Shown here: in pieces, positions 13,064 through 26,895 of the stretch
How positions within the stretch are numbered: position 1 is the stretch's first letter
Layout: each line of letters begins with the position of its first letter
NCBI RefSeq assembly: GCF_005144585.1
Contig: NZ_SSMQ01000023.1
Span: forward strand, 1 to 64,000
DNA length: 64,000 nt
Source: Polyangium fumosum
GTDB lineage: Bacteria; Myxococcota_A; Polyangia; Polyangiales; Polyangiaceae
Direction: 5' to 3'
Made by a program: the position numbers and the translations under genes
Notes under the pieces: generated by a model
Told to the model about the DNA's origin: nothing
Databases searched by the model: none
Seen by the model: the letters and a program-made list of their open reading frames with translations, nothing else

Positions 13064-14584
13064 ATGCGTGATCTTCCTCCATCGCCGATCGAGAAACTTC
13101 CAAAGACGGAAAGGTCTCCGCTACGATCGCAGCGGTCTTCCGTGCAAAAGTCCACTCTCCTCCTCGTCCTGGGCATCGGCACCTCGGTCGCCGCAGGGCT
13201 CGGGCTCGGCGCCTATCGGTACGGGCCACGTTCGCCGGTCGTCGAAGGCTTGTTCCTCGGCGAGCAACGCGTGCCCGACGAAGGCTCGCCCGCCTCGTGG
13301 CTTGCCCGCCGTCAGCTCGACGCGCTCGGCTGGGAGGCGCGGTTCCATCACGACGGCGAGATCGTGGAGACCACGCTCGGCGCGGTCGGCGTCGAGATCG
13401 ACGTGCAAGCCTCGCTCGATCGTGCCGGCGAGGTCGGGCATGTGGGCTCGCTCCTGCGTCGCATGCGGGAGGCGCGCCTCGCGCGGAGCAGCCAGGTCTT
13501 CGTGCCGCTCGCCTTCTGGATCGACGAGGCGAAGGCGCGTCGTTTCCTCGAGTCGATCGCGCCGCGCTTCTCCGTCGCGCCTGTCGACGCGGTGCTCGAC
13601 CTCGAGAACAAGCGCAAGATCGAGGACGTCCCTGGCCGTGAGCTCGACATCGACGCCTCGCTCGCGGAGATGCGCGCGACGAGCTTCGAGGACGGCGTCG
13701 TGATCCGCCTCGTCACGAAGCGCGTGCCGGCGAAGGTGACCGCGCTCGATCTCGCGCAGGTCGACGTGACGAAGGTCGTCGCCGCGTTCGAGACCTCGTT
13801 CTCGCTCTTCGGCTCGGGCGCGGGGCGCGCGGTCAACATCCGCAACGCCGCGCGCAAGATCGACGGCGTCGTCTTGCCGCCGGGCGCCGGGTTTTCCTTC
13901 AACGACCGCGTCGGGGCGCGCACGCGGGAGAACGGTTTTACGCTCGCGCCCGAGATCCAGGGCGACGAGCTCACGGACGGCATCGGCGGCGGCACCTGCC
14001 AGCTCTCCTCGACGTTGCACGGCGCGGCCGTCTACGGCGCGCTGGAAGTCCTGCATCGGCAGGGGCATTCGCGCGCGTCGAGCTACACGAAGCTCGGCCT
14101 CGACGCGACCGTGAGTTTTCCCGTTGTCGACCTCAAGCTCAAGAACCCCTATCCGTTCCCGGTCATGATCCACGCCCATTTCCCGCAGCCGAACAAGGTG
14201 CGCGTGGAGATCCTCGGCGGCGAGCCGGTCGCGAAGGTCGAGTACGGCTACGGGGTCGGGCAGTCGTATGATTTCGTCCGTCGGATCACGGTGAAATCGC
14301 ACCTGCCGCCCGGGAAACGCATTCATCGGCAGAAGGGCGTGCGCGGGTACGACGTCACCTCGACGCTCCGCATTTCGTATGTCGACGGCCGCGTCGAGGA
14401 GCGGCGCTGGTTCAGCGGTTATCGCCCTTCGCCCGAGGTCTACTGGGTCGCGCCCGGGTACGACGAGGCGAACCTGCCGCCGCTGCCCGAGCATGCGAAG
14501 GGCATCGAGGGCCGGCTCGCGGACGCCTCTACGGCGACGGCGTCGTTTCCGGTGTCGACGCCTGCGCAGGCTCCGGCGCCGTGA
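13064..14584 (+). CDS. VanW family protein
   Basis: A 506-residue protein with a cytoplasmic basic N-terminus, one membrane anchor (residues 27-48, STLLLVLGIGTSVAAGLGLG), an extracytoplasmic region of peptidoglycan-binding-4 type, and a VanW domain (about residues 265-400) with the hallmark segments LPPGAGFSFND and GGGTCQLSSTLHGA. VanW proteins accompany vancomycin-resistance genes in some Gram-positives, but most bacterial members lie outside resistance clusters and have no established function; a cell-envelope role is likely. No vanA/H/X-like genes are nearby. Its last 56 bases overlap the end of the convergent FGE-like gene. Confidence 0.85.
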   Translation: MRDLPPSPIEKLPKTERSPLRSQRSSVQKSTLLLVLGIGTSVAAGLGLGAYRYGPRSPVVEGLFLGEQRVPDEGSPASWLARRQLDALGWEARFHHDGEIVETTLGAVGVEIDVQASLDRAGEVGHVGSLLRRMREARLARSSQVFVPLAFWIDEAKARRFLESIAPRFSVAPVDAVLDLENKRKIEDVPGRELDIDASLAEMRATSFEDGVVIRLVTKRVPAKVTALDLAQVDVTKVVAAFETSFSLFGSGAGRAVNIRNAARKIDGVVLPPGAGFSFNDRVGARTRENGFTLAPEIQGDELTDGIGGGTCQLSSTLHGAAVYGALEVLHRQGHSRASSYTKLGLDATVSFPVVDLKLKNPYPFPVMIHAHFPQPNKVRVEILGGEPVAKVEYGYGVGQSYDFVRRITVKSHLPPGKRIHRQKGVRGYDVTSTLRISYVDGRVEERRWFSGYRPSPEVYWVAPGYDEANLPPLPEHAKGIEGRLADASTATASFPVSTPAQAPAP

Positions 14585-15335
14585 CGGGCTCCTCGGGGTC
14601 CTTGCAGCAGCGGAAGCCAATCTCGTAATAACGAAACATCGGCCCGTGCGAGTCGTTCGTCCCGCGGCAATGGGCCCAGGGTTTGGCCCAGAATCCCCCC
14701 TTGAGCGACGAGCGGTAGCGCCACTCCTTGCGTGACGTCCGCACCCACTCCTCCACGTTGCCCACGAGGTCCTTCACGCCGAAGCTCGACGCGCAGCGCG
14801 GCCGGGATCCGCTCGCCTCGCCCTGGTAGAGGCGCCACGTCTCGATCTCGCGCACGCGCCGCTCGTCGGCGTTCAGCTTCCCCTCGTCGTACGGGATGAA
14901 ATCCTTCGAGGCGTTGCAGGCGTTCGGGTCGAAGGTGTGGCCGTAGGGCCAGGGCGTCGTCTCCGGGCCCTCGCACGCGAGCTCCCACTCGAATTCGGTG
15001 CAGAGGCGCTTGCCCACCGAGGCGCATTTCTTCTCCGCCTCGACGAACCGCATCATCACCTCGGGCCGCTTGCCCTCGCGGTTCGGCCACTCGTGCTCGT
15101 CCATGCACACGTGCACCGGCGTGGCCACGGGCTCCTGCGCCAGCATGCCCGGGAGGAACGAATAACAGTGCCCGAGGCGCCACGTCGTGCAGAGCCGCTG
15201 CACGTGCTCGTAGTGCGTGCCCGAGACGAGCCGCGTGCCCGAAGGACAGACGTCGGCCGGGGGTGTGACCTGAACGGCGGCAGGCGTGGCCTGCGGCGCG
15301 GCGAAGAGCTGGGCGAGGAGCGTCGGAAGGAGCAC
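14529..15335 (-). CDS. formylglycine-generating-enzyme-like (SUMF1/FGE-sulfatase) secreted protein
   Basis: A 268-residue protein with a short hydrophobic N-terminus suggestive of export and an FGE-sulfatase fold. Diagnostic pieces are CMDEHEWPN, AEKKCASVGKRLCTEFEWELAC, DLVGNVEEWV and the C-terminal GGFWAKPWAHCRGTN...YYEIGFRCC. True FGEs oxidise a cysteine in sulfatases; many relatives in myxobacteria have no sulfatase partner and serve other roles, so activity is uncertain. It is Cys-rich, consistent with disulfides outside the cytoplasm. The start is GTG. It overlaps the VanW gene tail to tail. Confidence 0.75.
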   Translation of the reverse strand: MLLPTLLAQLFAAPQATPAAVQVTPPADVCPSGTRLVSGTHYEHVQRLCTTWRLGHCYSFLPGMLAQEPVATPVHVCMDEHEWPNREGKRPEVMMRFVEAEKKCASVGKRLCTEFEWELACEGPETTPWPYGHTFDPNACNASKDFIPYDEGKLNADERRVREIETWRLYQGEASGSRPRCASSFGVKDLVGNVEEWVRTSRKEWRYRSSLKGGFWAKPWAHCRGTNDSHGPMFRYYEIGFRCCKDPEEPVTAPEPAQASTPETTPSP

Positions 15336-15469
15336 CGAGGCGGGGCATCCTAGCGCAGAAAACGCGCCCTCGGGCGGCGCAACGCTGCGACGCGACGAAC
15401 CCCCTCGACGAGAGCGTGCCCGCCGTCCACGTTCTCGCCCGTCCCATCTGTCCAGGCTACGATGCCGCG

Positions 15470-16117
15470 ATGCAACGGACGATGCTTGGCTTCCTGGGGA
15501 TCATGACGCTCGCGGTTGCGGGGGTCGGTGCTTGCGGCGGCAAGGTGGTGATCGACGCGGACGGCACGGGCGGCGCGGGCGGCGCCGGCGCGGGAGGAAG
15601 CGGGAGCGCCGGGACGAACACGACGACGAGCTCGAGCGGGACGGGGGGCGGCGGCCTGCAGAGCCTCTGCGAGGCGGCGTGCGCGAGCATGAGCAAGATC
15701 CCGGGGTGCGCGGAAGAGGACTGCGTCGACGATTGCGTGCAGGAGTTCGAGGACGAGGCCGGCCCGTGCTTGAACGAGGTCACCGCCTTGCTCGAGTGCG
15801 TCATCGAGAACGCGGGCTTGAACGGCGAGTGCTTCAGCTCGACCTGCTTTCCGTTCGTCGAGGCGCTCGATGCGTGCAAAGCCCCGAGCACCGGCTGCTC
15901 CAGCGTGCTTTGCTCCCAGGGCTCGGACGGGTCGTGCGACTGCTCGGGCCAGTGCAACGGGGCCTCGGTGACCACGCAGTGTTTCTCCCAGCCGGGCAGC
16001 ACGCAGGTCTGCGTTTGCTCCATCAACGGGCAGGACGTCGGCAAGTGCGAGGCCAGCCTCGGCATCTTCGCCTGCAGCGTCGACCAGGGCTGCTGCGCGC
16101 AGTTCTTCCTCCCGTAA
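15470..16117 (+). CDS. cysteine-rich lipoprotein, hypothetical
   Basis: The ATG at 15470 is chosen over an upstream in-frame start because it places a signal peptide with lipobox VGACGG at the N-terminus. A Gly/Ser/Thr linker (residues 30-60) follows, then about 150 residues with some 24 cysteines in repeated C-x3-C and C-x6-9-C spacings. This is the architecture of many myxobacterial outer-surface lipoproteins. No enzymatic motif is visible. The stop codon abuts, with no gap, the stop of the convergent HprK-like gene. Confidence 0.75.
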   Translation: MQRTMLGFLGIMTLAVAGVGACGGKVVIDADGTGGAGGAGAGGSGSAGTNTTTSSSGTGGGGLQSLCEAACASMSKIPGCAEEDCVDDCVQEFEDEAGPCLNEVTALLECVIENAGLNGECFSSTCFPFVEALDACKAPSTGCSSVLCSQGSDGSCDCSGQCNGASVTTQCFSQPGSTQVCVCSINGQDVGKCEASLGIFACSVDQGCCAQFFLP

Positions 16118-17107
16118 TTAGAAGTCGAGGCTGTCGATCCCGGCCGCGAGGATCGAGGGGTCGTCGAGCAGATCCCGGCCCATGCGCAGCTCGTAGTGGC
16201 GCGCGCCGTTCGTGAGGCGGGTCAGCAGGGCGAGGTGCTCGGCCTTTCCGGGCACGTCGTCGATCACGAGGCCGCCGCTCGACGCGATCAGGTGGCCGAG
16301 GCCCTCGGCCTTCGCGATGGGGGCGAGCTGGGTCGGCTGATCCGGCTCGACATGCGGGTAAAGCACGAGGGTCGGCGCGAGGCAGGTGGACCGGGCTTGG
16401 CCCGGGAAGGCGCGCTTCGGGTCGACGTCGCGTCTGTCGCCGTGGCTCTTCGGGGGGCCTGCAAAGGGCGCGAGGCGCGGGAAGGCCGAGAGCGTGGCCG
16501 GGCCGACGTGAAAGGGGCGCGGGAAGGCGCAGAGGCGCGGCCGTCCGACGGGGGTCTCTTCGAGGAGGAGCGCGTCGTCGCCGAGGAGGTCGTAGCCGGC
16601 GGACGCGAGCGTGATCGTGGTGGTCGTCTTGCCCGCGCCCGTGCCGCCGACGACGAGGATGGCCTCGCCGTGCGTGCGATGAACGAGGGCCGCGGCGTGG
16701 AGGTGATAAAGGCCGTGCGCGCGGAGGGCGAGCGAGAGCGCGATCTCGAGCGCGCCGCGGGCCGAGCCGGGGACGACCTCTTCGCCGGCGAGGAAGGCCT
16801 CGATGTGCGAGGTTCCCTCGGGGACGAGGATGCGGCTCTTCCGATCCCAGAGCAGGAAGGCCCGAGGCAAGCCCACGGGCTCGCGGTAGGCCTGCACGAT
16901 GCCGTGGAAAAACGACGGACGATACCCCTCGACGAACGGATCCGTGTCGAGCGGAGCGACGCCGTGGCGGAGGGCGATCTCGATGCGGCCGCGGCTGCCG
17001 TCCGTCTGGCCGATGCCTTCGTCGAGGCCGAGCTCGCGCACGAGATCGGGCGCGCCGTCCTCGGTCGTCCAGGCGAGCGTCACGCCGTGCAGCGCCGCGG
17101 TTTGCAT
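16118..17107 (-). CDS. HprK-like kinase of a RiPP-type cluster
   Basis: About 329 residues with a P-loop GGTGAGKTTTT near residue 153, followed by LASAGYDLLGDDALLL, the arrangement of HPr-kinase-like domains. Related kinases in lasso-peptide clusters phosphorylate a serine of the peptide; others in PqqD/B2 clusters have unknown targets. No PTS HPr or second kinase gene is nearby, so a sugar-regulation role is unlikely. It is the last gene of a run in which the PqqD-like stop lies only a few bases upstream. ATG 17107 or the adjacent GTG 17110 may be used. Confidence 0.75.
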   Translation of the reverse strand: MQTAALHGVTLAWTTEDGAPDLVRELGLDEGIGQTDGSRGRIEIALRHGVAPLDTDPFVEGYRPSFFHGIVQAYREPVGLPRAFLLWDRKSRILVPEGTSHIEAFLAGEEVVPGSARGALEIALSLALRAHGLYHLHAAALVHRTHGEAILVVGGTGAGKTTTTITLASAGYDLLGDDALLLEETPVGRPRLCAFPRPFHVGPATLSAFPRLAPFAGPPKSHGDRRDVDPKRAFPGQARSTCLAPTLVLYPHVEPDQPTQLAPIAKAEGLGHLIASSGGLVIDDVPGKAEHLALLTRLTNGARHYELRMGRDLLDDPSILAAGIDSLDF

Positions 17108-17113
17108 CACGCC

Positions 17114-17392
17114 TCAGGGCGGTAGCACGAGGCCGTCTTCGAGCATCTCGCGCAGCACGCTGTCGACGTCGCGCGCGGCGGTCTCGCGGTCGACGCGGAA
17201 GAGCGCGGTGATCCGCTCGGCGATCGCGCCTGGATCGGCGATCGACTCGGCGAGGGATTTCCACACGATCACGGCGGCCGCGTTCAGCGTGAAATAGAAC
17301 TTCGTGTCGAGGTGGAGCAGGACGCCCGTGCCGTCGTCGAGCTCGGTGAAGAGCACCTGGGGGTTTGGCCTGGGAAGGTGCGGCTCGGTCAC
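17114..17392 (-). CDS. PqqD-like peptide recognition protein (RRE; lasso B1-like)
   Basis: A 92-residue protein with the PqqD winged-helix pattern: VLFTELDDGTGVLLHLDT, then YFTLNAAAVIVWKSL, then a helix pair ending LREMLEDGLVLPP. Such RiPP recognition elements bind leader peptides and present them to modifying enzymes; the stand-alone form matches lasso B1 proteins. The start is GTG at 17392, whose last two bases are part of the TGA stop of the upstream B2 gene, indicating translational coupling. Longer in-frame extensions upstream run through the B2 gene and lack family character. Confidence 0.8.
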   Translation of the reverse strand: MTEPHLPRPNPQVLFTELDDGTGVLLHLDTKFYFTLNAAAVIVWKSLAESIADPGAIAERITALFRVDRETAARDVDSVLREMLEDGLVLPP

Positions 17393-17814
17393 GCGGCGGG
17401 CTCCTTGAGGGATGAGGCGTAACAAGGGTAGGCGTACGTCACGACGAGGTCGGGGTCGAGCTCTTCGCCGTACGGCGCGCCGTCGAGCTCCACCCACGCG
17501 TGCCCCTCGATCTCGCCGGGCCGCGAGAGGCCCATGACGAACCGCGCGGCATGCCCGGCACGTCGGAGCAGCGAGAAACGCGCGAGCGAGCGGTAGAGGC
17601 AGGTGTCGGGGACGAACGGCAAGTGATGGGTGATCACGTCCGCGTGCGCGAGCGCCTCGTCGATCACGTCGAGCGGCGCGGGCTCGATCGTGCCCCGCGC
17701 GAGCGCGTCGAGCAGCGCGGGCAGGCTCGACTGCGCGACCCGCAAGGGCAGCGAGAGGCGCAGGCCGACAGCGGTCGCGGAGAGGCGGAGGTGCTTGGGC
17801 CAGGCTGAAGGCAT
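17389..17814 (-). CDS. lasso-peptide B2-type transglutaminase-fold protease
   Basis: A 141-residue protein matching the B2 leader peptidase family: catalytic cysteine in DTCLYRSLARFSLLRRAGH (Cys72), histidine in GHAWVELDG (His105), and a downstream acidic residue. The family uses a Cys-His-Asp triad to cut the leader from lasso precursors after delivery by the B1 protein. Here the downstream gene encodes that PqqD-like partner with a four-base overlap, and a radical-SAM gene ends 20 bases upstream. No ATP-dependent lasso cyclase is encoded in the neighbourhood. The ATG at 17814 is chosen for the start; an upstream extension is not family-like. Confidence 0.8.
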   Translation of the reverse strand: MPSAWPKHLRLSATAVGLRLSLPLRVAQSSLPALLDALARGTIEPAPLDVIDEALAHADVITHHLPFVPDTCLYRSLARFSLLRRAGHAARFVMGLSRPGEIEGHAWVELDGAPYGEELDPDLVVTYAYPCYASSLKEPAA

Positions 17815-17834
17815 CCCGCGTTCCCCCGCGCCGC

Positions 17835-18890
17835 CTAGCGCACGACGGGCAGGGTGACCTTCTTCGCCCACGCGCCGCGCCACCGCTCCCGCTGCGCCGA
17901 CGGGCCGCCTGCGCCTTCGTCGGTCCAGTGGGGCTTGTCGAAGTGCTTCATGCACCAGTTGCAGGGGAAGTGGTCCCACGTGTCGAGCGAGCCCCGGGCC
18001 ATGGCGGCGAGCCGCGCGGTTTGGGTCTCGTGGATGATGCCGAGCAGGCGGCCGTGGGCCTCGCGCAGGCTCGTCGTGGCGAGGTCGGCGGCGACGTCGC
18101 GCGGCGGGCCCTCGCTCGGGACGCCCGCGTGCTGGCAGCAGAGGTTCAGGCGGCCCTCGACGTCGACGTGGAGCGACTCGCTCTTCATGGCCTCGCAGAC
18201 GTGGAAGGTCTGCTCGCGGTAGAACCCCTCGGGCATCGTCACGGGCATGGTGAGCGCGGCGGAGAGGCGCTCGATGCGGTGCTGCGCGTCCTGCCAGGCG
18301 CGGGGCGGCAGGTACAGCGCCTCGTCGTGGTGCGTGCCGGTCGCCTGGAGCATGGAGAGCGACGCGCGCGCCGCGCCGAGCTGCGCGGCCATGAGGCCAA
18401 ACGCCTCGATCTGATGCACGTTGCGCGCGTGGAGGACCATCTGGAGCGCGAACGGGAGGCCGTGCGCGGTGCAGAGGGTCACGGCCTTCATGACATCACG
18501 AAAGCTCCCCTTGCCGCGGATGCCGTCGTGCGTGATCTCGTCGGCGCCGTCGAGGCTCAGGTTGACGGCGGTGAGGCGCTCGCGCCGCGCGGGGCCGTCG
18601 CGCAGGAGCCCGAGGAGCTGCTCGAAACGCCTGCCGTTCGTGACGATGTGCCACGTGAGATCGTGCTCCACGATCGCGTCGAGCACGCCTTCGAGCTCGG
18701 GGTGGAGCGTGGGCTCGCCGCCGGTGAGCGCGACTTGGCGGGTGCGGTAGAGCCGCTTGGCCTCGGCGAGGACCTTGCGGATCGTGGCGAGCGAGAGATC
18801 CTTCGGTTTCTGGCCGGGATCACGCAGGCAATGCTGGCAGTCGAGCTGGCAGCGATCCGTGAGGTGGAAGGCGATCCAGGTGACGGCCAT
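17835..18890 (-). CDS. radical SAM protein, putative RiPP-modifying enzyme
   Basis: A 351-residue enzyme with the radical-SAM cluster motif CQLDCQHC near residue 13 and the GGEPTLHPE motif near residue 57 that contacts SAM. Extra cysteines near the C-terminus (HVCEAM, LNLCCQHAG, FPCNWCMKHF) suggest a SPASM/Twitch-like auxiliary Fe-S cluster, as in peptide-modifying radical SAM enzymes. It begins 43 bases after the precursor-peptide stop and is followed by the B2 gene, so its likely substrate is that peptide. The chemistry (thioether, C-C crosslink, epimerisation or other) cannot be deduced. Confidence 0.8.
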   Translation of the reverse strand: MAVTWIAFHLTDRCQLDCQHCLRDPGQKPKDLSLATIRKVLAEAKRLYRTRQVALTGGEPTLHPELEGVLDAIVEHDLTWHIVTNGRRFEQLLGLLRDGPARRERLTAVNLSLDGADEITHDGIRGKGSFRDVMKAVTLCTAHGLPFALQMVLHARNVHQIEAFGLMAAQLGAARASLSMLQATGTHHDEALYLPPRAWQDAQHRIERLSAALTMPVTMPEGFYREQTFHVCEAMKSESLHVDVEGRLNLCCQHAGVPSEGPPRDVAADLATTSLREAHGRLLGIIHETQTARLAAMARGSLDTWDHFPCNWCMKHFDKPHWTDEGAGGPSAQRERWRGAWAKKVTLPVVR

Positions 18891-18933
18891 GGCGGTGGGG
18901 GCTCCGGGGCGGGCGCGCGGGGAGGGTGGCCGC

Positions 18934-19113
18934 TCAGCCCATGACGGTCATGCCCGTGGCGGGACCCATCGGCGTGAAGAGCGTCGCGCGGGCCACGGAG
19001 CGCTTCTTCGTGAGGCGCGGCGGCTCGTAGGGCTTGCGCGGATCCTCGACCGGCTCCCTCGCGTCGCCCTCCGAGCCTTCGAGCGTTGCGTTCCGGTCGT
19101 CGATGTCGGCCAT
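18934..19113 (-). CDS. putative RiPP precursor peptide with lasso-like leader
   Basis: A 59-residue peptide beginning MADIDD, with an acidic N-terminal half, the segment YEPPRLTKKRSVARAT and a C-terminal LFTPMGPATGMTVMG. The Y-x-x-P-x-L signature is the element of lasso leaders bound by B1/PqqD-type proteins. The presumed core has no Asp or Glu and so cannot make the isopeptide ring of lasso peptides; it is rich in Gly, Met and Thr. A GGAGAA site lies eight bases before the ATG at 19113. It directly precedes the radical-SAM, B2, PqqD-like and HprK-like genes. Identification rests on context and leader pattern. Confidence 0.65.
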   Translation of the reverse strand: MADIDDRNATLEGSEGDAREPVEDPRKPYEPPRLTKKRSVARATLFTPMGPATGMTVMG

Positions 19114-19254
19114 GCGCGTCGTTCTCCTTCTGCCGCGCCGCGGAGGCGAGCGCCTCGAGGACACTCCGCGCAGCGTATCACCGGGGCGCAGAGGTCACAA
19201 CGAGGGGCAGCCGTGGGTTCGTTGCGCACGCGCGGCGTGGCATTCATGCCTCAC

Positions 19255-20109
19255 TCAGGCCGCGCGCGGGAAGGGGACGAGGAGCGCGTGCGGATAGGGT
19301 CCCTCCTCGAAGAGCGCGACCTCGTAGCCGGACTCGAAGGCGACGCGCGGGATCTCGTCGGGCGAGAGGTACGAGAAGAATCCACCATCCGCGTAGAACT
19401 GATCGCCGGGCTCACTGCGGCCCGGCGCGCCCATCGCGGTGAAGGCGCGGCGAAGCGCGTCGCGCAGGCGTCCCTTGGTCTCGGTCTTCGCTTCGCTGTC
19501 ATGGCGGAGCTGGAAGCTCGTGAGCACGACGGCGCGCGGCGCGAGCGTGCGGACGGCGCGAAGGAGGCCGAGCCGCGCAGCGCCGGGCAAGACGTGCGAG
19601 AGGCTGCCCCAGCCGAGGATCACGGCGTCGAAGGAGAGAGGATCGCCGAGCGAGGCGAGGGGCCCGCCGCGGCCCTGGGCAGCGGCGACGAGGTCGTCGT
19701 AGGAGCCGAGGAGGATGTCGGCGGGGCGGTCCTTGGCGAGCGCGCGAGCGCTCTCGACGAAGGCCTCGCAGGGGTCGAAGGCGGTGACCGTGTAGCCACG
19801 TTCGAGCAGCGCGACGACTTCGCGACCGGCGCCGGCCGCGCCGACGAGGACACGGCCCGCGCGGGGGAAGGCGGGGGCGTCGAGGGCGCGTTTTTCCCAG
19901 GTGAAGAGGCCGCTTTCGAAGCGGTGGCCGCCGGGGAGGTAGGTCTTCTGGCGCGCGTAGAGCGCGGCGGTGAGGGCGGCGCGATCCGCTTCGGGGATCC
20001 AGGCGAGGAGGAGCTCGTCGCGCAGGCCTTCGCGTGCGGTGGCGATGCGGTGCGCGAGGCGGTCGGCCGCGAGGAGGGCGCGGACCCAGGGGGGGATCCT
20101 GTACGTCAC
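19255..20109 (-). CDS. class I SAM-dependent methyltransferase
   Basis: A 284-residue protein with a Rossmann methyltransferase core: VLVGAAGAGREVVALL (motif I) near residue 95, AFDPCEAFVESARAL (motif II), and DAVILGWGSLSHVLPG (motif IV region). The start is GTG at 20109 giving VTYRIPPWVRAL; an ATG a few bases upstream is out of frame. It precedes the precursor-peptide gene by 141 bases on the same strand and could be the first gene of that operon, perhaps modifying the peptide, but this is only positional. A GGGAGC hexanucleotide tract lies just upstream of its start. Confidence 0.7.
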   Translation of the reverse strand: MTYRIPPWVRALLAADRLAHRIATAREGLRDELLLAWIPEADRAALTAALYARQKTYLPGGHRFESGLFTWEKRALDAPAFPRAGRVLVGAAGAGREVVALLERGYTVTAFDPCEAFVESARALAKDRPADILLGSYDDLVAAAQGRGGPLASLGDPLSFDAVILGWGSLSHVLPGAARLGLLRAVRTLAPRAVVLTSFQLRHDSEAKTETKGRLRDALRRAFTAMGAPGRSEPGDQFYADGGFFSYLSPDEIPRVAFESGYEVALFEEGPYPHALLVPFPRAA

Positions 20110-20132
20110 GGGCGGGCATCGTAGCGGGTGGA

Positions 20133-20229
20133 AGCGGGAGCGGGAGGGGGAGCGGGAGCGGGAGCGGGAGCGGGAGGGGGAGCGGGAGCGGGGGCGGGGG
20201 CGGGAGCGGGGGCGGGAGCGGCAAGCGGG
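20133..20229. repeat. hexanucleotide (GGGAGC)n tract, first copy
   Basis: About 16 units of GGGAGC with GGGGGC and GGGAGG variants run without interruption just upstream of the methyltransferase start. Read on the minus strand it would encode alternating Pro-Leu or Ser-Arg, but no supported gene uses it. A second tract of the same hexamer is at 23466-23557. Confidence 0.85.
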
Positions 20230-20582
20230 ATCTTTTGTGTACCGCTGTTGAGGAGGGGGATAGGTCCAGTGCCGGATAGGCCATGGGCCTTGCGAGGTGT
20301 GGCGGGCCGTCAGGGATGATCGATGAAGAGCTCGGCAATCGGCGCGCCTTTCGTTTGGCACGGCGTGCGCGATGGCGCCGCGCGTGGGTTCTTCCAACGC
20401 GCTTTCCGCATTGTACGGCGCCCTGTCATGCTGTAGCTGGGGATACAGCCGCGGCGGCGGCGCCGCGGTGACGGTGTTCGGGCGTGAGGGCAAATGGGCG
20501 GGTTGTTCACCCTATGCGCTCGGGGAGGTAGAGCGAGTCGAAGCCGCGCGCTTCTACGGCGCGCGCCAGCCTTCAGGGCGCT
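20230..20582. other. intergenic region without recognised gene
   Basis: The 353 bases between the hexamer tract and the glutathione-transferase stop contain only short frames with no family resemblance. A palindromic CGGCGGCGGCGCCGCGG stretch near 20452 is the only local structure noticed. Confidence 0.4.
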
Positions 20583-21215
20583 CTAAGCCCCAGGCATCTT
20601 GAGGCCGCGCTCGGCCATTACGGATTTGTTGCGCGCCTCGCTCTTCGCGTACGCCGGGCGGGCTTTGACCCGCTCGGCATATCCGGTGAAGCTCGGGCGC
20701 GGCTCGAGCATCTTGAAGTCGAGCATGTACGCGATGGTGCCGCCGAAGATGACGTCGGCCATCGAGAATTCCTTGCCGAGGACGAAGTCACGGCCAGAGA
20801 TGGCCGATTCCATCGTCGCAATCATGTCGTCGTAGTTGCCCCAACCGGCGGAGCCGGCGCGGAACTCCCAGTTGCCGGCCTTGGCCATCGAGCCGGGCTC
20901 GATGACCGAGGGGGCGAAGAGCGACCAGCGAAAATAAGTGCCGCGCGCCGCGTCGTCGAGCTTCGGCGCGAGGCGGCCCGGGGCATAACGATCCGCGAGA
21001 TAGAGGCCGATCGCCGCGGATTCGGTGACGACGGTGTCGCCGTCGACGAGCAAGGGCAGCTTGCCCATCGGATTGAGCTTCGTGACGTCCTCCTTCTTCT
21101 GGCCGCCGGCCATGATGTCGACGAACTTGAGCTCGTACTCGACGCCGACTTCCTCGAGCATCCACACAGTGTTGGCGGCGCGCGAAAACGGGTGGTGGTA
21201 AAGAACGATGGCCAT
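20583..21215 (-). CDS. glutathione S-transferase family protein
   Basis: A 210-residue cytosolic glutathione transferase. The N-terminal thioredoxin-like domain starts MAIVLYHHPFSRAANTVWMLEEVG, with the Ser/Arg pair near residue 11 in the catalytic position, and contains the cis-proline segment MGKLPLLVDGD and the TESAAI glutathione-contact motif. The helical C-terminal domain includes FSMADVIFGG, the N-capping box of the family. Conjugation or peroxide-reduction substrates are not predictable. The ATG at 21215 starts the domain exactly; long upstream extensions are spurious. It is divergent from the WD40 gene. Confidence 0.88.
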   Translation of the reverse strand: MAIVLYHHPFSRAANTVWMLEEVGVEYELKFVDIMAGGQKKEDVTKLNPMGKLPLLVDGDTVVTESAAIGLYLADRYAPGRLAPKLDDAARGTYFRWSLFAPSVIEPGSMAKAGNWEFRAGSAGWGNYDDMIATMESAISGRDFVLGKEFSMADVIFGGTIAYMLDFKMLEPRPSFTGYAERVKARPAYAKSEARNKSVMAERGLKMPGA

Positions 21216-23036: not shown

Positions 23037-23756
23037 GACGCGAGGGGCCTCCCGCGCGAGCCGACGCTTTCGATGCTCATCTCTCTCCTTGTCGAGGATG
23101 ACAAAGCCGTGTCCCGCATCAGGAATCCCCCCGTCAGGCACGACGACCCACGCGTGCTTGTACACGGGGAGAAGACGGGCGCGTGCGCCGCCCGCGCGGC
23201 GGCTGTGCTGTCATCGGAGTCCGCGATCATTGCGAGGCGTCGGGCATCGGCATCGTGCGCGACCACCGCAGCGTCGATGTCGCCTGCCGCCGCCGCCGTG
23301 ACCTCCCCTTGCACGAGCACGGCCTGAAGGGTCCCGCGTGGGTTGGCGCCGGGGATGCCCCAAAGGGCGGCCACGGGGTCCGAAGTGGCACCAACGCGCG
23401 CCAACGGGGCCGATCCGGCGTCAGCAGGACGCGGAGCCAGCGGGGTATGCCGGGGTAGGGGTGACGGAAGCGGAAGCGGGAGCGGGAGCGGGAGCGGGAG
23501 CGGAAGCGGGAGCGGGGGCGGGAGCGGGAGGGGGGGCGGGAGCGGGAGGGGGAGCGGCATTCAGAGATACCGCTCGGGGACGGCGAGCGTACCGTCGTGC
23601 TCGGCCTCTTCAAGGCCAAGCCGTCCTCGCCGTCCTCGCAGCACTGCGTGCTGCTCCGGGCGGCTCCGGGCGGTGCTGCGCAGCCTTGAAGAGGCCTGCG
23701 CGCGACGGTGTGGGACGGGGGCCCGGCGAGAGGGTCGTCGGGCGGAGGGTTTCGTC
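23037..23756. other. intergenic region with possible minus-strand gene relic and hexamer tract
   Basis: No intact gene fits these 720 bases. On the minus strand about 23035-23340 reads as protein-like text in two frames: one with VVAHDADARRLAMIADSD, then another with VYKHAWVVVPDGG and GHGFVILDKERDEH ending at a stop, as if a frameshift had broken a short gene. The family is unknown. The hexamer tract at 23466-23557 follows. Confidence 0.3.
23466..23557. repeat. hexanucleotide (GGGAGC)n tract, second copy
   Basis: About 15 units of GGGAGC with GGAAGC and GGGGGC variants. It has the same unit and strand as the tract at 20133-20229, 3.3 kb away, and lies about 200 bases before the four-helix-bundle gene. 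Confidence 0.85.
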
Positions 23757-24953: not shown

Positions 24954-25766
24954 CTACGCCCGCATGTCGCTCGCCGGCGCGCGCTTGGGCAGGCGAAGCT
25001 GGGCGTGCGGCGTGAAGAGCAGGCGCCTTCCGAATTCCCCTGCGAGCACCCCGGAGACCGCAGCCACGGCGACGAGCTGATACAGGATCACGATCTGGTA
25101 ACGCACGGCCTGCTCGGGCGCCGTGCCGCTCACGATTTGACCCGTCATCATCCCCGGCAGCGCGACGAGCCCGACCGTGAGCAGGCTGTTGATGGTGGGG
25201 ATCATCGCGGCGCGCACCGAGGCCCGCACGTGCCGGGCGAGCGCCTGCTCGGGCGTCGCCCCGAGCGCGAGGAGCTGCTCGATCTCGCCTGCATGTGCAT
25301 GCGCAGCGGCGAAGATGCGCTCGAAGACCTGTGCCACGACGTTCATGGCGCTGGCGATCATCATCCCGCTGATGGGCACGAGATATCTCGCCTCGTACAT
25401 CGGGTGCAGAGGCACGACGAAGATGAAGACCGGGGCCAGCGCCACCACGGAGCCGAGCACGATGGCCAAAAGCGCATAAGGAAACAGCGTGCGCGCCGAG
25501 GGCCCGTGCTCGACGCGCCGCGCGCTGGTCGCTGCGGCCACGCCGAGCATCCCCGAGATGGCCAGCGCCACCCATTCCGGCCGCTCATGCTTGAAGAGCA
25601 GGAGCAGCACGTGACCGATGGCGAGAAGTTGCACGGCCCCGCGCAGCGCGCCCCAAGCGAGGTCACGCTCGAGGTCGAGCCGCTTCCAGCGCGAGGCGAG
25701 GATCGCCAGCGCGACGAGCCCGAGCGTCACTACGAGCCGCGGCAGCGGGATCTCGAGGTAGCTCAC
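24954..25766 (-). CDS. ABC transporter permease, FetB/UPF0014 family
   Basis: A 270-residue permease with about seven hydrophobic segments and the family hallmarks RGAVQLLAIG, PVFIFVVPLHPMYEARYLVPISGMMIASAMN (cited as its PISGMMIASAMN core), and SVRAAMIPTINSLLTVGLVALPGMMTGQI. FetB-type permeases export iron or related metals and protect against peroxide stress in Escherichia coli. The GTG start at 25766 overlaps the TGA of the ATPase gene, so the two are translationally coupled. The C-terminus is cytoplasmic and basic. Substrate assignment follows family knowledge only. Confidence 0.85.
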   Translation of the reverse strand: MSYLEIPLPRLVVTLGLVALAILASRWKRLDLERDLAWGALRGAVQLLAIGHVLLLLFKHERPEWVALAISGMLGVAAATSARRVEHGPSARTLFPYALLAIVLGSVVALAPVFIFVVPLHPMYEARYLVPISGMMIASAMNVVAQVFERIFAAAHAHAGEIEQLLALGATPEQALARHVRASVRAAMIPTINSLLTVGLVALPGMMTGQIVSGTAPEQAVRYQIVILYQLVAVAAVSGVLAGEFGRRLLFTPHAQLRLPKRAPASDMRA

Positions 25767-26422
25767 GGCCCCTCCGCGACGGCCACGAGCTTCCCCGCCT
25801 GGAAGACGTAACGCCTCCCAGAGAGCGCCTCTGCGTGCGCCGCGATGTGCGTGACCATCACCACGCCGCGCCCTGCGGTCGCCATGCTGCGGACGAGCTC
25901 GATCACCTGCAGGGCCGTCTCTGGATCGAGCGCGGCCGTGGGCTCGTCGAGGAGCAGCACCTTCGGTTCGTTGGCGAGCGCGCGGGCCAGCGCGACGCGC
26001 TGGCGTTCTCCGCCCGAGAGCTCGTTTGCCCCGCGCGTGAGGAATGCTTCGTCGAGCCCCACGGCCCGCAAGAGCTCGATTTGCCGCTCGGGCGCGAGGG
26101 TCTCGCCGCGTAGCGCCGGCCCGGCAGCCACGTTGTCCGCGACGGTGCCAGGCAGCATCGGCGGCGCCTGGGGCAGATAGGCGATGCGGGTCCGAAAGCG
26201 GGTCGGAGGCAACGCGATCGCATCCACCCCGTCGAGCAGCACATGCCCGCTGTCGATCGGAATCAGCGTCGCCATCGCCCGAAGAAACGTGCTCTTCCCG
26301 CTGCCGGAGGGGCCCGCAATCGCGACCTTCTCGCCGTACGAGACCACGAGGCTGGCGCCGTCGACGAGGGTGCGTCCTTCGCGGATCACGCGGATGTCGC
26401 GGGCTTCGAGGGCAGAGGGCAT
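25763..26422 (-). CDS. ABC transporter ATP-binding protein, FetA-like
   Basis: A 219-residue ATPase with Walker A GPSGSGKST near residue 37, Q-loop YLPQAPPMLPG, signature LSGGERQRVALARAL, Walker B VLLLDEPT and switch histidine in VMVTHIA. Order, size and pairing with a UPF0014 permease match FetA of the putative iron exporter. The ATG at 26422 is chosen because it opens the nucleotide-binding domain (MPSALEARDIRVI); a much longer upstream frame has no domain character. The last four bases overlap the permease start. Confidence 0.86.
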   Translation of the reverse strand: MPSALEARDIRVIREGRTLVDGASLVVSYGEKVAIAGPSGSGKSTFLRAMATLIPIDSGHVLLDGVDAIALPPTRFRTRIAYLPQAPPMLPGTVADNVAAGPALRGETLAPERQIELLRAVGLDEAFLTRGANELSGGERQRVALARALANEPKVLLLDEPTAALDPETALQVIELVRSMATAGRGVVMVTHIAAHAEALSGRRYVFQAGKLVAVAEGP

Positions 26423-26895
26423 GGGGCGTCCCGTCTGCTCGTCTAGCTTCGGGGATGGGCACGCGCCAGACGTGCGTCCTTGCGATGCGCCGGGCAGCCT
26501 CGGCCTCCCGGCGCGAAGCTCGCCCGTCTGGCGCGCCGTCGAATTCGAGGAAGCCGCGCGCGGAAGAAATCTTTGCCATCTCCGGACGACGACCGGCGAC
26601 GGGGGAACGAGGCGCCTTACGAAAATGGGGCGCGTGGATGCGGTGCAATCGCTCGATTTTCCTATCCGCGGGCCCACGTTGACAGCGCGGAGGGACGTTT
26701 GTAGGCATGCGATATGGGGGAACTTCGGAGATACGACATTGCGGCCGATCTGCCCCGACCGTCGTACCTGCGGATCAGCACGCTCGCGCCGTGTCTTGTT
26801 CCGCTTCCCTGTCGACGCGTCGTTCCTGCTCGGAGGGTTGCATCCGCGAGGGCGCTGGCGCCTGCTCGGCATCGGGCCATGCAGAGGGCCTCCCC
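26423..26895. other. divergent intergenic region, no gene recognised
   Basis: These 473 bases separate the FetA-like ATPase from the giant hybrid kinase and should contain both promoters. In-frame extension of the kinase upstream to 26707 gives non-domain sequence. No repeat or structured element was noticed. Confidence 0.35.

Follow-up and report, generated by a model that had tools for sequence, protein, structure and literature searches.

A putative RiPP operon in Polyangium fumosum with lasso-peptide machinery and a radical SAM enzyme that likely stands in for the lasso cyclase

The 64,000-nucleotide stretch of DNA analysed here (positions 1 to 64,000 of contig NZ_SSMQ01000023.1 of the soil bacterium Polyangium fumosum, hereafter the window) contains a minus-strand cluster of six genes, which is likely to be a complete, probably working operon for a ribosomally synthesized and post-translationally modified peptide (RiPP), built on lasso-peptide machinery and having a radical S-adenosylmethionine (SAM) enzyme in the place of the lasso cyclase. 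This interpretation is based on the operon layout with short gaps and a GTGA overlap, the recurrence of the gene set in 26 loci, the leader spacing and core composition of the precursor, the absence of a cyclase nearby, the trees of the PqqD and kinase proteins, purifying selection, a lasso-like RiPP recognition element (RRE), and structural matches of the radical SAM model to peptide-modifying enzymes. From position 20109 down to 16118 the gene order is methyltransferase, precursor, radical SAM enzyme, B2 protease, PqqD-type RRE and HprK-like kinase; open reading frame (ORF) coordinates and family matches bear out all six genes, their strand and their order as given in the first-pass annotation of the window. 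The features of the operon are:

19255..20109, minus strand: SAM-dependent methyltransferase (P0006), first gene; PF08241 at 21.7 bits (cut-off 21.2), daptide_MTase at 36 bits (cut-off 175).
18934..19113, minus strand: precursor peptide (P0001), 59 aa; homologues whose leaders are spaced alike lie near the radical SAM gene in 26/26 loci.
18982..19029, minus strand: leader recognition motif Y-E-P-P-R-L ... T, with Tyr at +0, Pro at +3, Leu at +5 and Thr at +15.
18937..18978, minus strand: predicted core FTPMGPATGMTVMG, putative cut after Thr-Leu; no Asp, Glu or Cys.
17835..18890, minus strand: radical SAM enzyme (P0002); PF04055 at 84.8 bits, CX3CX2C and twitch-like cysteines.
17389..17814, minus strand: lasso-type B2 transglutaminase-like protease (P0003); NF033537 at 56 bits (cut-off 33), PF13471 at 56.5 bits.
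17114..17392, minus strand: PqqD-type RRE (P0004); PF05402 at 53.3 bits, over cut-off.
16118..17107, minus strand: HprK-like kinase (P0005); HprK_rel_A at 35.5 bits, E 5.8e-9, a weak match (cut-off 200).

The B2 and PqqD genes are coupled by a 4-base GTGA overlap (17392/17389), as noted in the earlier annotation, and the remaining genes are separated by 6 bases (PqqD and kinase), 20 bases (radical SAM and B2), 43 bases (precursor and radical SAM) and 141 bases (methyltransferase and precursor). Judged by their family matches, the assignments of B2, PqqD and radical SAM are firm, and that of the methyltransferase is weak.

Comparisons were made over 26 loci, near copies included, comprising the window, 16 loci from a scan of 84,980 species genomes (L005-L020; close relatives only, best segment 48-91% identical to the window), and nine further loci (L043-L051). 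Because six of the 26 are from the window's genus and three (L043-L045) from one genus, they represent fewer independent lineages, roughly a dozen. The radical SAM and precursor genes are present in all 26 loci, and the PqqD, B2 and kinase genes in 25 each; the contig of L043 ends before PqqD and kinase, and L049 has no B2 within 10.5 kb. A 27th locus, L121, has the precursor, radical SAM, B2, PqqD and kinase genes. In a search inside the phylum, covering a sample of 377 genomes, the radical SAM family was found in 19 at a threshold of E<=1e-40, including 5/5 sampled genomes of the same genus. The co-occurrence check proposed with the first-pass annotation thus came out in its favour: the gene set is found repeatedly in Polyangiales and elsewhere in the Myxococcota, and a precursor with a lasso-type leader lies near the orthologous radical SAM gene in 26/26 loci and in L121. 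The arrangement varies, with B2 and PqqD on the opposite strand in L010-L012 and L019, and the precursor about 2 kb from the radical SAM gene in L043-L045. In L013 (8001-9064; Minicystis rosea DSM 24000) the radical SAM gene is split into two overlapping frames, which reflects either a genuine frameshift or a mistake in the assembly. Among six genomes of the window's genus the enzymes are under purifying selection, with median ratios of nonsynonymous to synonymous substitution rates (dN/dS; 15 pairs for each gene) of 0.18 for the methyltransferase, 0.21 for the radical SAM enzyme, 0.23 for PqqD, 0.26 for B2 and 0.41 for the kinase.

The precursor, MADIDDRNATLEGSEGDAREPVEDPRKPYEPPRLTKKRSVARATLFTPMGPATGMTVMG, has no match to any Pfam or NCBIfam model at E<=1. 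Its YEPPRL motif followed by Thr at +15 reproduces the spacing of lasso leaders exactly, in agreement with the lasso-type leader first proposed for it. YxxP is named as the recognition sequence of lasso peptides in PMC12710340, and Thr at -2 is described as invariant in their leaders in PMC10885120. The signature YxxPx[LIV]...T is kept across the family (Thr at +15 in 24/26 loci, Leu at +16 in 25/26), and the same spacing is found in lasso precursors of related genomes. The stretch YEPPRLTKKRSVARATLFTPM is identical in all six same-genus genomes, and the N-terminal third of the precursor varies. A distant relative at L049 186-359 has the leader F-x-x-P-x-L...T-A-G and an 8-residue core, GFFGTFYP. 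Within the window, the leader motif near the C-terminus occurs in 2 of 386 ORFs of 40-400 aa, one being the precursor and the other a chance ORF (21025-21201); in the precursor it is not a product of chance.

The core is predicted as FTPMGPATGMTVMG because B2 is assumed to cut as in lasso pathways. It lacks Asp and Glu for a macrolactam, as pointed out in the earlier annotation, and this is the case in 22/26 loci; an acidic residue at core position 7-9, the place of the ring acceptor, is present in three (L017, L047 and L048) and missing from the window core. Residue 1 is Phe, Leu, Val, Ile or Gln in 25/26 cores and Gly in one; the sole aromatic residue of the window core is Phe at this position, which is Phe in 11/26 loci and Leu or Val in most others. 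Ser or Thr occupies position 2 in 23/26. Cys occurs in two cores (L017 and L018) and is absent from that of the window, Trp and His occur in none, and Tyr in one (L049). Sequences of the cores vary widely between lineages. By composition, a thioether, a macrolactam or an aromatic cross-link appears unlikely in most of them.

No match to an asparagine-synthetase-like lasso cyclase profile is below E 0.18 in the whole window, where the cyclase, ABC (ATP-binding cassette) and other profile scans covered all 496 ORFs, and the best match in the other 25 radical SAM loci as fetched has E 0.74. The absence of a cyclase, noted in the window by the first-pass annotation, thus extends to all 26 loci as fetched and to L121, and neither of the two findings named there as refuting that annotation was made. 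It could still be that this is a true lasso pathway with the cyclase encoded elsewhere in the genome and the radical SAM enzyme only tailoring the product. The P. fumosum genome has one B2 and three places with PF00733 domains, such domains are also found in all 16 genomes of L005-L020, and lasso tailoring enzymes, the kinase included, are described in PMC9266682 as acting on the precursor before cyclization. However, the strong PF00733 place is an MCG-type (glutamine-dependent) AsnB, no B2, PqqD or HprK was found in the 3-4 kb fetched around each of the three, and, by the cyclase profile, none of the PF00733 places of the 16 relatives lies within the fetched flanks. Given in addition the lack of a cyclase in the 26 loci, of acidic residues in most cores and of Gly at core residue 1 in all cores except one, we regard this explanation as very improbable.

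A contrast is provided by other B2 loci of the phylum. Of the 377 genomes, 78 have a B2 match (55 of them above the cut-off) and 18 of these 78 also have the radical SAM family; we compared the B2 surroundings of 40 of the other 60 genomes, in which that family is absent. A cyclase was found in 16/40 of these loci by a single AsnB query, and the cyclase profile matches 22/40 at E<=1e-14, 12 of the 22 having been used to build it. Several of these loci have a kinase, PqqD and lasso-type precursors with Asp or Glu, and the radical SAM family profile matches 0/40 at E<=0.01; missing genes in this set mean little because some contigs are short. The leader motif near the C-terminus was found in 41 of 6150 ORFs (40-400 aa) of the fetched loci, comprising 23 precursors of radical SAM loci, 14 ORFs in other B2 loci, one orphan in L112 and three chance-like cases. 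The 14 come from 13 loci, and in 12 of these a cyclase was identified, by the single query or through the profile seed set (L084 by profile).

In the PqqD tree, a single branch with support of 100/98 sets the radical SAM loci apart from the cyclase loci, and the kinase tree likewise has one such branch (support 99, quick tree only); 0/500 label shuffles were as clustered as the observed labels in each tree. As the trees are unrooted, descent of the radical SAM loci from lasso clusters is a reading of them and not a result. Two loci were considered as intermediates and rejected: L112 showed no radical SAM gene of this family, and the contig of L114 (B2 at 97 bits) ends just beyond B2. L112 (4489-7516) has B2, PqqD, a kinase (108 bits) and the precursor YAAPTVSLAVPVGKVTMGLSLGVSPP with lasso spacing, and neither a cyclase nor this radical SAM family in the fetched 11.9 kb; it is possibly a further variant.

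These data also bear on the suggestion that the operon is a decayed lasso cluster, which has lost its cyclase and whose remaining genes are drifting beside an unrelated radical SAM gene. The split reading frame in M. rosea and the weak constraint on the precursor would fit such decay, but the same association is kept in 26 genomes, the dN/dS of 0.21 for the radical SAM gene speaks for selection, and the catalytic residues of B2, kinase and radical SAM enzyme are retained in nearly all loci. Since the PqqD and kinase proteins also constitute a lineage distinct from their counterparts at cyclase loci, decay seems scarcely credible, even less so than a cyclase encoded elsewhere.

The leader-processing proteins themselves resemble their lasso counterparts. 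The nearest solved sequences to PqqD are the lasso RREs TbiB1 (E 2e-7) and TfuB1 (E 1.3e-4), and its match to lasso_PqqD_Strm is 52.6 bits, below the cut-off of 70. For B2 no credible solved relative was found by sequence; its catalytic Cys is kept in 24/25 proteins and the His in 23/25. The P-loop Gly/Gly/Lys and the Asp-Asp of the kinase are retained in 23/25, and searches against solved sequences returned only HPr kinases at E ~0.3.

The radical SAM enzyme starts directly at the radical SAM core and has no fused RRE. In 16/16 aligned sequences the CX3CX2C motif (C14, C18 and C21) is invariant, as are the twitch-like set C232, C251, C310 and C313 and the additional residues C140 and C252, either of which might be a hydrogen donor. 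SPASM radical SAM maturases are characterized by a seven-Cys pattern. The first-pass annotation had described SPASM-like cysteines; the cysteines are there but are twitch-like, and the full SPASM set is absent from the 16 aligned sequences, which share only C232-x13-G-x4-C251, C252 and C310xxC313, with no SPASM model among the Pfam matches of the window protein at E<=1. Among the best 25 of its 63 NCBIfam matches no cut-off is reached, the best named ones being MftC (85.4 bits, cut-off 265), ScmF (84.2, cut-off 400), TIGR04053 (71) and PqqE (70.6, cut-off 381.35); largely the same families rank highest for the 15 remaining members. By profile the best solved match is PqqE (E 1.9e-18). The predicted structure (pLDDT, predicted local distance difference test, 86.9) appears closest to peptide-modifying enzymes, which are the highest-ranked solved structures for the model, with top alignments to SuiB (Z 24.4), SkfB (22.7) and PqqE (21.9), and also to anSME. 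In Foldseek and VIA-align comparisons it falls with peptide-modifying and viperin-like enzymes but is close to none of them in particular, and for this reason the fold does not reveal the reaction. The lower score of the peptide epimerase EpeE (Z 17.7) neither supports nor excludes epimerization.

PQQ (pyrroloquinoline quinone) and mycofactocin pathways combine a radical SAM peptide enzyme (PqqE and MftC) with a discrete RRE supplied in trans (PqqD and MftB), and their substrate is a Tyr-containing core. The operon described here has the same discrete RRE and separate radical SAM enzyme, with MftC and PqqE among the closest named or solved relatives of the latter. A peptide-derived cofactor or redox carrier of this kind, with B2 acting as the protease, is the alternative to which we give most weight, and it would be in line with the presence of the radical SAM gene in 5/5 sampled same-genus genomes and with the PD40-propeller proteins beside some loci. 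It is nonetheless unlikely: the named matches are all far below their cut-offs, B2 and a kinase are present here, and cores other than that of L049 lack the Tyr of the known substrates, that of the window included. The cores diverge widely between lineages, unlike a cofactor precursor, and the kinase, NTP_transf_5 and ABC neighbours are lasso-like. The matches to SuiB and SkfB, together with Cys in the L017 and L018 cores, could instead point to a sactipeptide, ranthipeptide or triceptide pathway based on a radical SAM enzyme, in which a lasso protease was simply co-opted. With no Cys in the other 24 cores, Trp and His missing from all and Tyr from all except one, and with an RRE that resembles those of lasso systems and is a protein separate from the radical SAM enzyme, such a pathway is less probable than a cofactor, and only slightly more so than a lasso cyclase encoded elsewhere.

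The preferred reading, a radical SAM enzyme on lasso machinery, is best appreciated by comparison with lasso peptides of the split B1/B2 and kinase type (paeninodin, pseudomycoidin), clusters of such make-up being present in genomes of the window's own family. Shared are the YxxPxL leader with Thr at -2, the discrete RRE, B2 and the HprK-like kinase, as well as, in some of the loci studied here, NTP_transf_5 and ABC proteins; kinase and nucleotidyltransferase genes are known lasso tailoring genes (PMC9266682). In contrast to these systems, no cyclase is found nearby, the window core has no Asp/Glu ring acceptor, 25/26 cores have no Gly at position 1, and a radical SAM gene is present. The SynChlorMet cassette, which by NCBIfam names comprises the radical SAM proteins ScmE and ScmF together with ScmD (SCM_PqqD_rel), differs in having two radical SAM enzymes. 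Its ScmC is HprK-related, and to our knowledge the cassette has no B2. The matches of its models here are weak and far below cut-off (ScmF 84.2/400, ScmE 68.2/400, ScmD 18.1/100 and ScmC 11.7/125 bits), and no paper on the cassette by this name was found in the open literature searched. The pairing of a lasso RRE with a radical SAM enzyme in general is already in print, since RRE-Finder noted ~300 RREs of the lasso model beside radical SAM enzymes and counted them as false positives; the available text of that paper describes neither a set of B2, kinase and radical SAM genes nor a precursor (PMC7470986). No description of the gene set with its six-gene architecture, precursor family and lasso contrast was found in the open literature searched, which agrees with the earlier view that it is not a characterized pathway.

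We infer the following route to the product. PqqD would bind the leader via the Tyr, Pro and Leu of YxxPxL and, in the manner of the PqqD that serves PqqE, pass the precursor on to the radical SAM enzyme. Having no RRE of its own, this enzyme would then abstract a hydrogen from an aliphatic or hydroxylated core residue, the core being rich in Gly, Thr, Ser, Ala, Met and Val. The kinase may phosphorylate a Ser or Thr, core position 2 being the best candidate, and B2 would finally cut after Thr-Leu, releasing the free 14-residue core. In such a scheme the radical SAM enzyme would replace the cyclase as the bond-forming step, as proposed in the first-pass annotation, and its reaction need not be ring closure. 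Because most cores lack the Cys required for a thioether and the Trp, Tyr or His for an aromatic cross-link, we favour C-alpha epimerization or Ser/Thr-centred chemistry (an oxidation or an ether link), which together have perhaps an even chance of describing the reaction.

Several observations weigh against this interpretation. The leader Thr is replaced in two precursors (by Ala in L014 and Val in L046), and the acidic residues in the cores of L017, L018, L047 and L048, with Cys in the first two, suggest that the family may not share a single reaction. The precursor has a median dN/dS of 0.54 over 59 codons in the six same-genus genomes. The B2 tree needs two changes owing to L047, which forms a long outlying branch, and L112 groups on the radical SAM side in the PqqD and kinase trees even though it lacks this radical SAM family. 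The PF00733 domains elsewhere in the genome of P. fumosum and in those of L005-L020 belong here as well. For both the kinase and the methyltransferase the match to the nearest NCBIfam model stays below cut-off, the methyltransferase gene is found in 12/26 loci including the window, and the operon has no exporter, the nearest ABC protein in the window, and the sole match of the ABC profile there, being encoded at 25763-26872, ~5.6 kb away. A sigma-70 scan gave no promoter-like site.

The surroundings of the operon differ between genomes. Neighbours scoring >100 bits in the 25 fetched loci include an ABC protein (14 loci), a methyltransferase (11), an NTP_transf_5-type protein (7) and a secreted-looking protein of 450-480 aa (7); profiles of the last two have no match in the window. 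Secreted-looking lipoproteins recur beside the peptide genes, the 450-480 aa family being located near the precursor in L009-L013, L019 and L020 and having no Pfam match in the two proteins scanned. PD40-propeller proteins are encoded beside other loci (L045 9051-10817, L047 9108-11210 and L015 9026-9868). In the window, an FGE-sulfatase (formylglycine-generating) family protein is encoded on the same strand just downstream of the operon (14529-15335), and a Cys-rich, probably secreted protein is encoded on the plus strand between it and the kinase gene (15416-16117). Two arrays of AGCGGG-type hexanucleotides are located at 20133-20230 (16.2 copies) and 23465-23557 (15.5 copies). Five loci of the same genus cease to resemble the window at 20125-20216, at or next to the first array, and on the downstream side they are collinear with it as far as the fetched sequence reaches (~9.4-10.0 kb).

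A broader proposal, which we advance tentatively and with somewhat less than even confidence, is that these operons form a distinct Myxococcota RiPP class derived from lasso peptides, in which the ATP-dependent cyclase was exchanged for a radical SAM enzyme and the leader, RRE, protease and kinase were kept, the new enzyme introducing a bond or altering the stereochemistry in cores that are rich in Gly, Ser, Thr and Met and for the most part have neither Cys nor acidic residues. We know of no lasso-type leader associated with such radical SAM chemistry. The operons bring to light a subfamily of radical SAM enzymes whose best 25 NCBIfam matches all fall short of the curated cut-offs and raise the question of how a radical SAM enzyme acts on a core with no Cys, acidic residue, Trp, Tyr or His. 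For genome mining they are a caution that B2, PqqD and a kinase together need not mean a lasso peptide. If the proposal is true, the leader-reading and cutting part of lasso biosynthesis would be a transferable unit, combined in the course of evolution with another kind of bond-forming enzyme, and the Myxococcota loci would offer a set of natural swaps for engineering.

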